In this document: in pieces, positions 2,300 through 9,385 of the stretch
How positions within the stretch are numbered: the stretch's first letter is position 1
How the letters are laid out: every line of letters starts with the position of its first letter
From: Thioalkalivibrio sp. ALJ12
GTDB lineage: Bacteria; Pseudomonadota; Gammaproteobacteria; Ectothiorhodospirales; Ectothiorhodospiraceae
Direction: 5' to 3'
Assembly (NCBI RefSeq): GCF_000378305.1
Contig: NZ_KB899540.1
Coordinates: 253,924 to 317,923, forward strand
Length of the DNA stretch: 64,000 nt
Program-made: the position numbers and the translations under genes
The notes under the pieces: generated by a model
Databases searched by the model: none
Seen by the model: the letters and a program-made list of their open reading frames with translations, nothing else
What the model was told of the DNA's origin: nothing

Positions 2300-2770
2300 T
2301 CAGGCCGGCGCATCGGGATCCGCGCCCGCGTCCGCCGAGCACAGCGCCCCGGTGAGGTCCGCCTCGTCGAGCACGTGCCCCTCGGCCACGGCATCGAACT
2401 GGCTGCGGGTCGCCCCCGCCTCCAGCTCCAGCTCGGCATCCAGCGCCAGCAGGCGGAAGCGGTAGTGATGACAGCCCTCCGGCGGCACCGGGCCGAGATA
2501 GCCGACCTTGCCGAAGGCATCCATCCCCACGCGCCCCTCGCGGGGCAGGTGCAGGGCATCCACGCAATGCGTATCCGGTGGCAGGTTCCAGACCAGCCAG
2601 TGGGTGACCTCCCCCAGCGGCGAGTCCAGGTCTTCCAGGATCAACGCGAGACTGCGTGCACCCGCCGGCACATCACGAATGTCCAGCTGCGGCAACTCGT
2701 TGGCATCCCGCGCCGAGACCTCGATCGGCATCCGTTCTCCGTCTGCAAACGCCGGACTGCTCAGCCGCAT
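2300..2770 (-). CDS. YbhB/YbcL-like PEBP family protein
   Basis: A 156-aa phosphatidylethanolamine-binding/Raf-kinase-inhibitor-like protein of the bacterial YbhB/YbcL type. The ligand-pocket motifs are present: EDLDSPLG (46-53), HWLVWNLP (57-64) and GYLGPVPPEG with HHYRF (90-105). There is no signal peptide, so it is probably cytoplasmic. The physiological ligand of bacterial members is largely unknown. It is divergent from the beta-CASP RNase gene. The shared 157-bp intergenic region contains a perfect FNR/ANR-type palindrome, so its expression may also respond to oxygen, although the spacing favours the other gene. Confidence 0.88.
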   Translation of the reverse strand: MRLSSPAFADGERMPIEVSARDANELPQLDIRDVPAGARSLALILEDLDSPLGEVTHWLVWNLPPDTHCVDALHLPREGRVGMDAFGKVGYLGPVPPEGCHHYRFRLLALDAELELEAGATRSQFDAVAEGHVLDEADLTGALCSADAGADPDAPA

Positions 2771-2860: not shown

Positions 2861-2874
2861 TTGATCCGGATCAA
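2861..2874. promoter_or_regulatory. Perfect FNR/ANR-type binding site
   Basis: TTGATCCGGATCAA is an exact match to the FNR/ANR consensus TTGAT-N4-ATCAA and a perfect palindrome. Its centre (2867.5) lies about 41 bp upstream of the start expected from a weak -10-like CATTAC at 2895-2900. That is the class II activator geometry for the downstream beta-CASP RNase gene (ATG 2928). The divergent PEBP gene starts 97 bp away on the other side. Binding by an oxygen-responsive regulator is inferred from the motif. Confidence 0.75.
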
Positions 2875-2927
2875 GTGCGAACGCTTTGCTTGCCCATTAC
2901 ACCCACGTCCCGCGTACACTTCCCCTC

Positions 2928-4328
2928 ATGGCACAACTGACCTTTCAGGGGGCAACCGGCGAGGTCACCGGTTCGCGTTATCTCCTCGAGACCGACGACG
3001 CCCGCATCCTGCTGGAATGCGGCATGCACCAGGGCAACAGCGAAGCGGACGAGGCCAACCGCGCCTCGCTCGTCGAACTGGCGGAAACACTCGACGCAGT
3101 GGTGCTGTCGCACGGCCACCTCGACCACTCGGGGCTCCTGCCCAAGCTGGTGCGCGATGGCTACCGCGGCCCGATCTACTGCACGCCAGGCACCGAGGAG
3201 CTGCTCGAGATCATGCTCGAGGACGCCGCGTTCGTGATGAGCAAGGACATCGAGTGGGAGAACAAGTGGCGCCGGCGCGCGGACAAGCCGCTGCTGGAGC
3301 CGGTCTATGACATCGACGACGTCGCCACCACCCTCGGGCTGTGCGAGGCCGTGCCCTACGGCCAGGCGCGCAAGATCGCGGGCGGAATTGGCCTGACCTT
3401 CCGCGATGCCGGGCATATCCTCGGTTCCGCGATCGTGGACCTGATCGTGCCCTCCGGCGGGCGCGATCGGCACCTGGTGTTCTCGGGCGATCTCGGCAAC
3501 GCCGACGCCGTGCTGATGCACGACCCGGCACGCCCGGAACACGCGGATCACGTGCTGCTGGAGAGCACCTACGGCGACCGCGACCACCGCCCGATGGAGG
3601 AGACGGTCGAGGAGTTCGCGCAGGTCCTGGCCGAGGCCGACAAGAGCGGCGGCAACGTGCTGATCCCAGCCTTCGCCGTGGGCCGCACCCAGGAGATCCT
3701 CTACCACCTGAGCATGTTGCACCACGCCGGGCGCCTGCCGCAGCAGAAGGTCTTCCTCGACAGTCCGATGGCGATCAAGGTCACCGAGCTGTACGCCCGC
3801 CTGCGCCGCACGCTGGACCCGGAGGACATGGACCGGCTGCACCAGGCCGCGAATGGGGATCCGGCGGCCTACCTGCCGGGGCTGCAGGTCTGCCGCACGG
3901 TCGAGGAATCCATGGCGATCAACCGGATCACCGGCGGCGCGATCATCATCGCCGGCTCCGGAATGTGCAATGGCGGGCGCATCCGGCACCACATGAAGTA
4001 CAACCTGTGGCGGCGCGAGGCGCATCTGGTGATCGTCGGCTTCCAGGCGACAGGCACGCTGGGCCGGCGCCTGGTCGACGGCGCCGAGCGAGTCAAGCTC
4101 CTGGGCGACGAGGTCGCGGTGAACGCGAAGGTCCACACCCTGGGCGGCTTTTCCGCCCATGCCGGGCGCAGCCAGCTGATCGACTGGGCGCGCGCCTTTC
4201 AGGACCAGCCGGTATTCCACCTCGTGCACGGCGAGCCGGAGGCGCGCGAGGCCCTGGCCACCGGCCTGCGTGACGAGCTGGGGGCCGAGGCGCATGCACC
4301 CGCCTTCGGCGAGACCATTACGCTGTAA
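2928..4328 (+). CDS. Beta-CASP metallo-beta-lactamase RNA-processing nuclease
   Basis: A 466-aa protein of the RNA-metabolising MBL/beta-CASP family (CPSF73/TTHA0252-like, COG1236). It carries the metal ligands HGHLDH (62-67), DAGHILGS (H163) and SGDLG (D188). The beta-CASP motifs are ESTYGDRDH (E212, motif A), GSGMCNGGRIRHH (motif B) and GGFSAHAGR (motif C). Family members are zinc-dependent endo/exoribonucleases. The ATG at 2928 is used because homology starts there and the residues encoded upstream are not family-like. It is the first gene of a tight run: 21 bp to the Na/Pi transporter, which overlaps the RNA ligase. Oxygen-responsive control is suggested by the FNR box. Which RNAs it cuts is unknown. 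Confidence 0.92.
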   Translation: MAQLTFQGATGEVTGSRYLLETDDARILLECGMHQGNSEADEANRASLVELAETLDAVVLSHGHLDHSGLLPKLVRDGYRGPIYCTPGTEELLEIMLEDAAFVMSKDIEWENKWRRRADKPLLEPVYDIDDVATTLGLCEAVPYGQARKIAGGIGLTFRDAGHILGSAIVDLIVPSGGRDRHLVFSGDLGNADAVLMHDPARPEHADHVLLESTYGDRDHRPMEETVEEFAQVLAEADKSGGNVLIPAFAVGRTQEILYHLSMLHHAGRLPQQKVFLDSPMAIKVTELYARLRRTLDPEDMDRLHQAANGDPAAYLPGLQVCRTVEESMAINRITGGAIIIAGSGMCNGGRIRHHMKYNLWRREAHLVIVGFQATGTLGRRLVDGAERVKLLGDEVAVNAKVHTLGGFSAHAGRSQLIDWARAFQDQPVFHLVHGEPEAREALATGLRDELGAEAHAPAFGETITL

Positions 4329-4349: not shown

Positions 4350-6029
4350 ATGCCGGAGGCCGAAGCCGTCAGCACCTACGCCCTGATCGCCGGCTTCCTC
4401 GGCGGTCTCGGGCTGTTCCTGCTCGGGATGACCCTGCTGACCGACGGCCTGAAGACCGCCGGCGGCAGGGCGTTGCAGCACATCCTCGGGCAATGGACCC
4501 GCACCCGGCCGCGTGCCCTCGCCTCGGGCATGGGCGTGACCGCGCTGGTGCAGTCCTCCAGCGCGGTCACGGTCGCCACCATCGGCTTCGCCAATGCCGG
4601 TCTGCTGACGCTGGGCCAGTCGGTCTGGGTAATCTTCGGCTCCAACGTCGGCACGACCATGACCGGCTGGCTGGTCGCACTGATCGGCTTCAACATCCGC
4701 ATCGAGGCCTTCGCCCTGCCGGCGATCGGCATCGGCGCCCTGCTCTACCTGTTCATGAAGGCCGCACGGCCGCGCTATCTGGGCCTGGCGCTGGCCGGCT
4801 TCGGTCTGCTGTTCTTCGGGATCGACGTGCTGCGCGAGGCCTTCGAGGGACTGAGCGCCACCTTCGACCTGGGCGCGCTGGCGCGTCCCGGTTTCGCCGG
4901 GCTCCTGATCATGGTCGGCATCGGGGCACTCCTGACCGTGCTGATGCAGAGCTCCTCGGCCTCCATGGCCATGGCCCTGACCGCCGCGATGAGTGGCGCG
5001 GTACCGCTGGAAGCGGCCGCCGCGGCCGTGATCGGCGCCAACCTCGGCACCACGGTGAAAGCGCTGCTGGTCGTAATCGGCGCAACCCCGAACGCCAAGC
5101 GCGTCGCTGCGGCCCATGTGATCTTCAACGGCCTGACCGCGATCGTTGCGCTACTGATCCTGCCCTGGTTCCTGGCCGCGATCGCCTGGATCTGGGGCAG
5201 CACCGGCGAGGCCCCGGCGCCGGCGGTGCTGCTGGCGCTGTTTCATACCGCGTTCAACCTGCTCGGGGTGGCGCTGATGGTGCCAGTCGCCCCGCCGATG
5301 ATCCGCTGGCTGCAGGGCCGCTTCCGCACTATCGAGGAGGACATCGCCCGGCCACAATACCTGGACCGCAGCAGCTCCGGGGTCCCGGATCTCGCCCTGC
5401 AGTCGCTGATCCAGGAGACCGAGCGCCTGGCCGACATCGGCCACTCGATGGCCCGCGAAGCCCTGCAGACCGCGCCGCCGGCGGCCGGCACCCTGGACCG
5501 CAGGCGCCTGGCCGCGGAGCAGCTGACCCAGGCCATCGCCGACTTCGCGGCCCATACCGCGAACCACCCAATGCCAGAACAGGTCGGGCACGGAATCGCC
5601 GAAACCGTGCGCATTGCCCGCTACCATCGCGAGGTCGCCATACTGGCCGACGACATCGCCGACCTGCGCCGCCAGTCCAGCGGCGAGGAGCGCCCGATCG
5701 TGACCGAACAGCGCCGCGCCTGGCAGGAACAGGCGATCCGCGCCCTGGACCTGTGCAACCTGGAGGCGGACGATGGCGACAATGGGCATGAACTGGCCGC
5801 CGCAGAGGCTGTAGACACGGTGGAATCCGCCTATGCCGAATTGAAGGCCGCCCTGCTGCGCGAAGGCACCTTCGGCTCGCTGAGCATGGCCGAGATGGAA
5901 CGACAGCTGCGGATCATCAGCATGGCGCGGCGCCTGGTAACCCAGGCCGGCAAGGCCCGCCGCCACACCGAGGCCCTGAAGGATCAGATCCGGGGCCTGA
6001 GGAAGACCCCGACAGAAGAGAACGCATGA
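4350..6029 (+). CDS. Na/Pi cotransporter (NptA/PF02690) with C-terminal PhoU-like region
   Basis: A 559-aa inner-membrane protein. The family's inverted duplication is visible: QSSSA at 68-72 with GSNVGTT near 97-103, then QSSSAS at 200-205 with GANLGTT at 229-235. These form the sodium/phosphate sites. Residues after ~340 are soluble, helical and charged, resembling the PhoU-like tail common in bacterial NptA proteins. It probably moves inorganic phosphate with sodium. Some bacterial relatives are implicated in phosphate efflux, and direction cannot be read here. Its stop overlaps the RNA ligase start (ATGA), implying translational coupling between a phosphate transporter and an RNA repair enzyme. 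Confidence 0.9.
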   Translation: MPEAEAVSTYALIAGFLGGLGLFLLGMTLLTDGLKTAGGRALQHILGQWTRTRPRALASGMGVTALVQSSSAVTVATIGFANAGLLTLGQSVWVIFGSNVGTTMTGWLVALIGFNIRIEAFALPAIGIGALLYLFMKAARPRYLGLALAGFGLLFFGIDVLREAFEGLSATFDLGALARPGFAGLLIMVGIGALLTVLMQSSSASMAMALTAAMSGAVPLEAAAAAVIGANLGTTVKALLVVIGATPNAKRVAAAHVIFNGLTAIVALLILPWFLAAIAWIWGSTGEAPAPAVLLALFHTAFNLLGVALMVPVAPPMIRWLQGRFRTIEEDIARPQYLDRSSSGVPDLALQSLIQETERLADIGHSMAREALQTAPPAAGTLDRRRLAAEQLTQAIADFAAHTANHPMPEQVGHGIAETVRIARYHREVAILADDIADLRRQSSGEERPIVTEQRRAWQEQAIRALDLCNLEADDGDNGHELAAAEAVDTVESAYAELKAALLREGTFGSLSMAEMERQLRIISMARRLVTQAGKARRHTEALKDQIRGLRKTPTEENA

Positions 6030-7126
6030 TCGACCACGAAACACTGCAGGATGCCGTCGCAAATCGCCGCGCCGAGGCCCTGACGTTTGACGGGCTGGAG
6101 TACGCACGGCTGCTGGAACCGGTTAATCACTACCCGCGCGGATCAGTAGTATTGCCGGACGGTTCAATAATCCCCGGCTACCCGGCAATCGGACGCATCC
6201 AGTCGCTGGAAGCCGGGCTGCCCCGTCAGTTCGACCAGCCCTTCTGGGCGGAGGAGAAGATCGACGGCTTCAACGTGCGCATCCTGCGCTGGCACGGGCG
6301 CATCTATGCCTTCAGCCGCGGCGGCTACGTCTGCGCGTTCAGCACAGACCGGGTGACGGATTTCATGGACCCGGTGATCTTCGACGCCGAGCCCGACCTG
6401 ATCCTGTGCGCAGAGATCGCCGGTCCGGATACGCCGTACCTGGAAGGTTCCACCCCCCGGGTCGCACACGATGTGGGCTTGTTCGTCTTCGACTTGATGC
6501 GCCTCGGCCAGCCCGGCTTCGTGCCCCAGCCAGAGAAATTCTCTTTGATCGAGCACCACGCACTGCCCCCGGCGCCCCTGCACGGACAGTTCACCCCACA
6601 CGACACCCAGGCGCTCGGGCAATTGATACGGCGGCTGGACGAGGAAGGGGCCGAGGGGCTGGTCCTGAAGACCGTGGACGGGCAGCACCGCGCCAAATAT
6701 GTCACCGGGAGCTCGTGCATCTCCGATATTCGCGTATGTTCGGAACAACTGCTCGACCTGCCGCCAGAGTATTTCACCAACCGCCTGACGCGCCTCGCCA
6801 TTTTTCTGTCCGAGCACCCGTCCCGGCACCACACCGATCTGGAACAGATTCTCGGCGATGCGCTCCTTTCAGGGCTTTACGGGGCGGTCGGGCAGCACCG
6901 CCGGCAGGGCCATGTCGGCCATCGCTATCGCTGCCGCTTCCGCGAGCGTGCCAACGCGCTGCATTTCATGAACCACATGCGTGCCACCGGCGGACGCCAC
7001 GTGGCCTTCGCCGACGACGCACCGCGCCAGGAAGATGGCTACTGGCTGCTGGAATTCGACCGCCAGTTCGACCGCATCACCGGCACACTGGCCTCCGCCC
7101 TGGCCGGCGAACGCCAGTACGATTGA
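6026..7126 (+). CDS. ATP-dependent RNA ligase, Pab1020/Rnl3-like
   Basis: A 366-aa covalent nucleotidyltransferase. The motif order is: motif I KIDG (78-81, K78 the presumed AMP-accepting lysine), RGGY (98-101), motif III around CAEIAG (E130), IIIa VGLFVFDL (150-157), IV EGLVLK (210-215) and V AKY (223-225, K224). Size and motif spelling match the archaeal Pab1020/MthRnl family (TIGR01209-like), whose members adenylylate 5'-phosphate RNA ends and can circularise RNA. It begins inside the transporter stop codon. The family's habitual neighbour, the PIN-domain partner, is encoded convergently 10 bp downstream. Bacterial occurrence suggests old transfer from archaea, although GC content matches the surroundings. 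Its RNA substrate is unknown. Confidence 0.88.
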   Translation: MIDHETLQDAVANRRAEALTFDGLEYARLLEPVNHYPRGSVVLPDGSIIPGYPAIGRIQSLEAGLPRQFDQPFWAEEKIDGFNVRILRWHGRIYAFSRGGYVCAFSTDRVTDFMDPVIFDAEPDLILCAEIAGPDTPYLEGSTPRVAHDVGLFVFDLMRLGQPGFVPQPEKFSLIEHHALPPAPLHGQFTPHDTQALGQLIRRLDEEGAEGLVLKTVDGQHRAKYVTGSSCISDIRVCSEQLLDLPPEYFTNRLTRLAIFLSEHPSRHHTDLEQILGDALLSGLYGAVGQHRRQGHVGHRYRCRFRERANALHFMNHMRATGGRHVAFADDAPRQEDGYWLLEFDRQFDRITGTLASALAGERQYD

Positions 7127-7136
7127 GCCGGCGCGC

Positions 7137-7727
7137 TCAAATGCCGGGGCGCTCCGCCTCTGCGAGGTTCTCCATCACCCGGCGCAGATAATCGGCGGTG
7201 ACGAGCTTGATGCCCATGCGGTTGCCCAGTTTGCGCATGCCCTCATCGGCACTGGCCAGCTCCGCATCCAGCTCCATCGCCAGCAGAACAGCATCGACGT
7301 CCTCGCGCGAGTCCACCAGGCCCTTGCGCATGGCCTCGCGAAAGCGCTCGCGCAGCTGGGTGATGAGCTCAGGTTTGAGCGACTCCGCCGCACCCGCCTG
7401 GCGCGTGTGCTCCTCGGCGATGCGCAGCCCGCGGTCGATACGCGTGCGCACCTCGTCGATGAACTCGTAGAGGATGTCGCTGGGTAGTGTCAGGGCGAAG
7501 CGACGCGGCGAGCGCACCCAGACCACGGTCTCAAAATCCGCGGCCAGGGCCTCCAGGTCGCGCATGCCGCGGAATTCCTCGTACACCGACAGCGGCATGT
7601 AGAACTCGGCCGGGCAATCGCGCGCCAGATGCAGAAAGGTGCGCAGGATGTCCTCCGCGTCCGCGCCAAACTGGCCCGCCACATGCGGGTTGGTGAACAC
7701 ACTGGTATCCAGCACGAAGCGGCGCAT
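7137..7727 (-). CDS. RNA ligase partner protein, PIN-like (MJ_0950 family)
   Basis: A 196-aa protein starting MRRFVLDTSVF, the first acidic strand of a PIN fold (D7). Further candidate metal ligands are E50/E51, D145 and D161, with VTADYLRR near the end. It matches what I know of TIGR03875, the 'RNA ligase partner, MJ_0950 family', found almost always beside Pab1020-type ligases. A PIN fold suggests a metal-dependent endoribonuclease, but no activity is established for this family to my knowledge. The ATG at 7727 is preferred over longer frames because a strong AGGAGGT-type site (complement at 7731-7738) sits 7 nt upstream. It converges on the ligase with a 10-bp gap, so it has its own promoter. 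Confidence 0.87.
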   Translation of the reverse strand: MRRFVLDTSVFTNPHVAGQFGADAEDILRTFLHLARDCPAEFYMPLSVYEEFRGMRDLEALAADFETVVWVRSPRRFALTLPSDILYEFIDEVRTRIDRGLRIAEEHTRQAGAAESLKPELITQLRERFREAMRKGLVDSREDVDAVLLAMELDAELASADEGMRKLGNRMGIKLVTADYLRRVMENLAEAERPGI

Positions 7728-7863
7728 CACGACCTCCTGTCGGGTTCTTTCTCCATCATCGGCGGCGACCGCAAACCCGTCAACCAAGGCCATGTTCGGA
7801 TCGGCGCCAGGGGCACCCTGTGGCATAATCCCGCCTGACCTCCCAGCCATACAGGGACGACCC

Positions 7864-8794: not shown

Positions 8795-9385
8795 ATGACG
8801 CTCCAGCTGGTGTATGTCAGCCGCGCGGCCTTTGCGCGCCACGAACATCCCGCCCAGGGCATCGAGCCCGAGGTCGGGCGGATCCTGCTGCAGTCGCGCC
8901 AGAACAACCCCCGGGCCGGCATCGTGGGTGCCCTCTATTACGGCGACGGCCACTTCTTCCAGTGCCTGGAGGGCGAGCCCAAGGCCGTCTACGCGACTCT
9001 GGAGCGCATCCGTTGCGACCCGCGCCACGAAGAGATCACCGTACTGCGCGAACGCGAGCTGGAGCGCGCAGGCTTCGGAGAGTGGTCGATGAAATATGTC
9101 CCCGCGGCCGGCGAGGTACGCGCCCTGTTGCAGCAATTCGGGCAGCGCCGGTTCGATCCCTTCGGCTTCGACGACCAGCAGATTGAAGCGATGCTGGATC
9201 TCCTGCGCAGCGGACGCGACAGCGAACTGGAGGCGACACCCGCGATCAGCGGGAGCACGCCTTCAACGAGCCCCGCCCCGCCGGGCGATCGGCGTCGCCT
9301 GCTAGCCCTGGCGGGCTGGGTCGCGGCCGCCGTGGCCGCAGGCATCGCCGGTACGGCGGGCTATCTGTTCCTGGCCGGGGGCTGA
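8795..9385 (+). CDS. BLUF blue-light receptor with C-terminal membrane anchor
   Basis: A 196-aa protein whose residues 1-105 form a BLUF (FAD blue-light) domain. The photocycle residues are in place: Y7 (LVYVSR), N38, Q56 (FFQCLEG), W97 and M99. The Asn-Gln spacing (18) and Gln-Trp spacing (41) equal those of AppA. Between Tyr and Asn there are about seven more residues than usual, which lengthens the first loop/helix. A Pro/Ser-rich linker follows, then one hydrophobic helix (about 165-195) ending LFLAGG, predicting a tail-anchored photoreceptor. No EAL/GGDEF output is fused. The neighbouring HDOD protein is a candidate partner by context only. Confidence 0.88.
   Translation: MTLQLVYVSRAAFARHEHPAQGIEPEVGRILLQSRQNNPRAGIVGALYYGDGHFFQCLEGEPKAVYATLERIRCDPRHEEITVLRERELERAGFGEWSMKYVPAAGEVRALLQQFGQRRFDPFGFDDQQIEAMLDLLRSGRDSELEATPAISGSTPSTSPAPPGDRRRLLALAGWVAAAVAAGIAGTAGYLFLAGG

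Follow-up and report, generated by a model that had tools for sequence, protein, structure and literature searches.

The gap ahead of a beta-CASP ribonuclease gene in Thioalkalivibrio sp. ALJ12 holds an FNR/ANR-type palindrome, TTGATCCGGATCAA, and it raises the question of whether low oxygen governs genes of RNA processing in these soda-lake sulfur bacteria, a setting that is new for an FNR/ANR box. Within the window, as the whole 64-kb stretch of DNA analysed here is called, the box is followed by genes for the ribonuclease, a Na/Pi cotransporter-family protein and an RNA ligase. The locus appears best read as a clade-restricted, FNR-activated promoter of Thioalkalivibrio, which would give a known regulator a new target. 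Under oxygen shortage, an iron-sulfur FNR dimer would bind the palindrome and, as an activator rather than a repressor, would act on RNA polymerase from a site centred near -60.5, in class I fashion. The transcript would begin at or beside the beta-CASP ATG, yielding a leaderless mRNA that probably continues through the transporter and Rnl3 ligase genes. We hold this account to be quite probable.

An FNR-type box and its likely reader

As an earlier note on this DNA had claimed, the box is a perfect palindrome, symmetric at 14/14 bases (positions 2861-2874, no strand assigned), and it matches the TTGAT-N4-ATCAA consensus exactly. The exact pattern TTGATNNNNATCAA occurs a single time in the 64-kb window, and in 100 shuffles that preserve dinucleotides it never arose. 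The 2.78 Mb genome contains five occurrences, as against zero for a control pattern read backwards. Base composition (the G+C of the window is 67%) leads to an expectation of 0.004 exact matches in 64 kb and 0.17 in 2.78 Mb. With up to one mismatch allowed, the window holds two boxes against 0.40 expected, a count that is not significant by itself because 9/100 shuffles reach at least two.

The other exact boxes of the genome, with genes named by eye from their translations, stand before ccoNOQP (cbb3 oxidase), between a cytochrome c-like gene and the upstream side of a short minus-strand open reading frame, between aldolase-like and SoxB-like genes, and between hemerythrin-like and small haem-copper-like genes. 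The candidate box treated here would extend the FNR-controlled genes of the genus to RNA processing.

A search of the genome for the CRP/FNR family returned five matches, four of them above the cut-off. Among these is an FNR candidate that scores 247 bits against the NCBIfam Fnr model (cut-off 228) and has an N-terminal C-x2-C-x5-C motif, a further cysteine and a TQETISR helix; its cysteines and the ETISR residues align with a solved FNR. We take the E..SR helix to be the reader of TTGAT, and the cysteines presumably hold the iron-sulfur cluster. The genome encodes a protein with the four cysteines and the E..SR helix expected of an FNR that senses oxygen, and the FNR/ANR-type identity proposed earlier for the box is upheld by the exact consensus together with this matching regulator. 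With matches accepted at E values up to 1e-20, fnr is present in 27/30 genomes of the genus, among them all 23 that are near-complete.

The five family matches also bring up another reading, in which a different CRP/FNR-family protein, DNR- or FixK-like and for example a nitric oxide sensor, uses the box and the signal is not oxygen. Related CRP/FNR regulators use the TTGAT half-site too. The second family member is CRP (322 bits, above its cut-off), the third carries SAVHVSR and stays under the cut-offs of the FnrL, FixK and Fnr models that it matches, no regulator model matches the fourth above cut-off, and the fifth, at 22.9 bits, lies below the cut-off of the family search. However, the E..SR helix and the cysteine motif are confined to FNR among the four above-cut-off proteins, and a nitric oxide response is possible for FNR itself. 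On this evidence, a reader other than FNR is quite unlikely.

The core promoter and the register of the box

Downstream of the box lie a -35-like element, TTGCCC (2890-2895, plus strand), and a -10-like element, TACACT (2915-2920, plus strand), both conserved and separated by a spacer of 19 bp, measured by eye, which is long. The TTGC of the former is kept in 12/13 alignment rows, with CTGC in ALE14. The latter ends seven bases before the ATG at 2928-2930, and six to seven bases before the beta-CASP ATG in all 16 listed rows named Thioalkalivibrio; it reads TAGACT in T. sulfidiphilus, a Thioalkalivibrio by name that genome taxonomy places in another genus. A Shine-Dalgarno motif (five motifs were searched) is found in none of these 16 beta-CASP rows and in all seven of the Halomonas-type rows, one of which is Litchfieldella. 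The missing motif alone proves little, because three of the four Ectothiorhodospira rows have neither it nor TACACT. Taken together with the position of TACACT, it indicates that the beta-CASP mRNA is probably leaderless, with a predicted start at about 2928. This leaderless look (2907-2930 in the window) is shared by all 16 listed Thioalkalivibrio-named rows. The beta-CASP promoter was not called by a promoter scan.

From a start near 2928 it follows that the box would be centred at about -60.5, a class I position, and not at -41. The centre had previously been put about 41 bp before the start, and this is not supported by where the conserved -10-like element lies. Activating positions for an FNR/ANR box are -41.5, -61.5 and -71.5. 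In 9/10 carriers of the box, TACACT starts at the 48th base past the box centre, and in AL2 it starts at the 51st. A by-eye comparison with four ccoN-looking loci gives an agreeing register, since these have a TATTCT or TATCCT -10-like sequence in a class I-like position, starting at the 50th base (window genome, G029) or at the 52nd (the two others).

FNR might instead bind at -41.5, in class II fashion, with a transcript from near 2909 that carries a short leader. Class II is a standard FNR register in excerpts of PMC6343905, and another box of the genome apparently uses it, to judge by eye from a CTAGCG or CTAGCT -10-like sequence at 6/6 loci (the window genome and five relatives). At the beta-CASP gene, the bases in question share CAT in 7/10 carriers, but they offer no consistent -10, reading CATTACAC, CATCACAC, CATTGCAC, CATCGCAC and CATTAACC, as well as GCACACAG, CAACGATC and CGCAGAGC in three carriers. 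The fixed place of TACACT just before the ATG in 16/16 listed rows also speaks against this reading, as does the lack of a Shine-Dalgarno motif, since one would expect to see such a motif in a leader. With a consistent -10 missing, we judge the class II register unlikely and prefer the class I promoter with its leaderless start.

Elsewhere in the genome set, a 44-aa open reading frame (MLTEIMF...) was seen by eye after the exact box at 4049-4062 of locus L091, on the minus strand and running toward lower coordinates; its register is apparently class II, and five relatives share the layout.

Conservation of the box and the gene it probably serves

The expectation that the box would recur at the same position upstream of orthologues turned out to hold within one clade, where it is kept at a near-fixed distance, and to fail beyond it, where none of the other loci examined has a box with up to one mismatch. 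Such a box was found in 10/30 loci when 400 bp upstream of the beta-CASP gene were searched, and in 9/42 loci of a second set within 300 bp upstream, the two sets being drawn from largely the same genomes. All carriers, T. thiocyanoxidans ARh2 being one, belong to a single Thioalkalivibrio clade, and those besides the window have beta-CASP proteins 89-97% identical to that of the window. Among the 14 close orthologues, which are the loci at ≥89% identity with upstream sequence (window included; G019 and G008, contig-end or lower-identity partial matches, left out), ten have the box, eight of them perfect and two with one mismatch. In T. versutus AL2, the mismatch is accompanied by a 3-bp shift. 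The box is missing in ALJT, ALJ21, G029 and a partial MAG locus (L128), and since these four orthologues retain TACACT, it is dispensable for the beta-CASP gene. More distant orthologues in the 30- and 42-locus sets have no upstream box with up to one mismatch, and several (e.g., L019, L130 and L135) have two-mismatch matches. Because distant orthologues and part of the clade are without the box, low-oxygen control, as predicted from sequence, is not a general property of the beta-CASP ribonuclease or of the ligase.

When the ten carriers are aligned on the box, the half-site letters agree in 98/100 cells, the core is variable in two of its four columns, and the flanks (20 columns on each side) have diverged to averages of 5.6 and 6.7 of 10. 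Over the 100 columns compared, a range that ends before the -10 element, no other 14-base window is as well conserved as the box; in an alignment anchored on TACACT, six core-promoter windows equal or surpass it. The stretch nearer the PEBP-family gene on the other side of the gap is also fairly conserved (mean 7.2 of 10). On a beta-CASP gene tree of 17 rows (L128 excluded), the box label needs three changes, two of which are forced by well-supported branches, and the history is most simply one gain and two losses.

These three changes, the confinement of all carriers to one clade and the missing box in some close relatives would also suit a chance palindrome that was passed to close relatives and has no function. 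Against this stand the half-sites, which remained unchanged while their immediate flanks diverged, and the probability of a perfect site within the 157-bp gap between the beta-CASP and PEBP genes, about 1e-5 by base composition. A functionless box is very improbable in this light, and its conservation suggests a really functional switch.

A true box could still have the divergent PEBP-family gene (2300-2770, minus strand) as its target, with the beta-CASP gene a mere neighbour. It lies in the intergenic region common to both genes, where the PEBP start is about 97 bp away, and ALJ21 (plus HL17 and ALJ24, farther off) has neither an upstream PEBP neighbour nor the box. In ALJ3, however, 426 bp separate the PEBP start and the beta-CASP ATG, compared with 152-163 bp in the other nine carriers, and with PEBP about 270 bp farther off, the spacing between the box and the beta-CASP ATG is still exactly 60 bp. 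Since this distance is unchanged while PEBP moved, the box appears tied to the beta-CASP gene. Its spacing to the beta-CASP core promoter is likewise constant in 9/10 carriers, and in ALJT the PEBP neighbour is present and the box gone. The geometry in ALJ3 speaks for beta-CASP, which is most likely the gene served, and a role for the box at PEBP is distinctly unlikely. A BCCT-type transporter, recognized by eye, is the other divergent neighbour.

The genes behind the candidate promoter and their known relatives

The beta-CASP gene (2928-4328, plus strand), with its predicted leaderless mRNA, encodes a TTHA0252-like ribonuclease with Pfam Beta-Casp, RMMBL and Lactamase_B matches. The NCBIfam Cas14 and aCPSF1 models match the protein below their cut-offs, and membership of the Type VII CRISPR Cas14 family (365 bits, cut-off 800) was not assigned. 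It is followed by the Na/Pi cotransporter-family gene (4350-6029, plus strand; Pfam PF02690, NCBIfam NF037997 above cut-off) and by the gene for an Rnl3-type (Pab1020-like) RNA ligase (6026-7126, plus strand; Pfam PF09414 and PF18330), which scores 273.5 bits against TIGR01209 (cut-off 136.9). Adjoining the ligase gene and convergent with it is the gene for HARP, a protein-only RNase P homologue (7137-7727, minus strand; PIN_5, PF08745), which scores 217.9 bits against TIGR03875, the RNA ligase partner model (cut-off 95.3); the name HARP follows PMC12153264. A gene for a BLUF-domain blue-light sensor-like protein (8795-9385) was seen by eye after an HDOD gene.

The earlier note spoke of an RNA ligase operon behind the box. 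The packing is operon-like, with a gap of 21 bp between the beta-CASP and transporter genes and a 4-bp overlap between transporter and ligase, and the three genes likely form an operon; co-transcription through to the ligase is what we infer. One plus-strand terminator-like match falls in the three genes, inside the transporter, and it is no more than chance would give, with two such matches in the scanned region and 2.1 expected. None of the transporter, ligase or HARP genes has a box of its own, the best matches in the scanned stretches having four or five mismatches (four in 7728-7863, for HARP). If beta-CASP and ligase share a transcript, the capacities for cutting and joining RNA would rise together at low oxygen. 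It is a tentative and rather unlikely further step that low oxygen through FNR switches on an RNA cut-and-join module, in which beta-CASP trims or cleaves RNAs, and the co-expressed Rnl3, together with HARP, repairs or circularises them.

The ligase is present in 30/30 genomes of the genus and HARP in 29/30. HARP is present in 11 of the 14 loci L111-L124, and in 13 of the 14 loci L211-L224. In G007 and G013 (L123 and L124), beta-CASP, transporter and ligase stand together, and HARP is on another contig, outside the 15 kb around beta-CASP. In 13 genomes from the other part of the genus, ligase and HARP are convergent neighbours at another location (L211-L223; a fourteenth genome, G008, was left out), and the stretches of 3.5-11 kb around them have no box with up to one mismatch. 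A genus-wide tie between FNR boxes and the pair of ligase and HARP was rejected on this count, and oxygen control of the ligase, if it exists, would therefore be clade-specific.

In the four other genomes examined among those with such a match (G010, G012, G016 and G018; loci L106, L107, L108 and L109), a second beta-CASP gene with about 40% identity and an ATP-cone-like gene next to it is part of, or adjoins, a cluster with ccoNO and a hemN-like gene, the genes being named by eye; three of these stretches also contain fnr. No box with up to one mismatch precedes this gene in the four stretches. The boxes there are near other genes, so the association of the second beta-CASP gene with the cco-hemN cluster is circumstantial.

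Should such a cut-and-join module exist, the ligase would have come under oxygen control in this clade by its position behind the beta-CASP promoter, and a first growth condition would be available for seeking what the HARP-ligase pair does. The conservation of an oxygen box on a ligase-bearing cluster points to microoxic growth as the condition in which to seek the RNA products of the ligase. A literature search by title, conducted mostly outside subscription journals, found nothing on the FNR regulon of Thioalkalivibrio or on its oxygen response, and none of the matches listed dealt with FNR or anaerobic control of an RNA ligase operon. The sole match for FNR with beta-CASP concerns RNase J2 of another bacterium.

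Three known systems can be set beside the locus. FNR/ANR-activated class I promoters are centred at -61.5 or -71.5, according to excerpts of PMC6343905. The candidate promoter resembles them in its predicted centre of -60.5, close to -61.5, in its exact consensus box, in the presence of an FNR gene and in its weak -35-like element; it differs in the predicted leaderless start and in its targets, which are a ribonuclease, a transporter and an RNA ligase rather than respiratory genes. The TTHA0252-type beta-CASP ribonucleases are the second system. TTHA0252 is the nearest solved structure, matching at near full length (residues 8-464, E 2.6e-98), and since the name rests on the Thermus enzyme, the activity here is putative. 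The third is the pairing of HARP with Rnl3 ligase. Excerpts of PMC12153264 name Thioalkalivibrio as one of the few bacteria in which HARP occurs, report with reference to others that pre-tRNA processing failed with four recombinant bacterial HARPs, including one from a Thioalkalivibrio, and express the expectation of coordinate expression under specific stress. The HARP family is printed there as PF09745, and the match here is to PF08745 (PIN_5), the group named in its text; the terms oxygen, anaerob, FNR, CASP and lactamase are absent from its main text. The same two families that these excerpts describe are adjacent and convergent in the window, with the difference that the ligase here stands behind a beta-CASP ribonuclease, a transporter and a candidate oxygen-responsive promoter.
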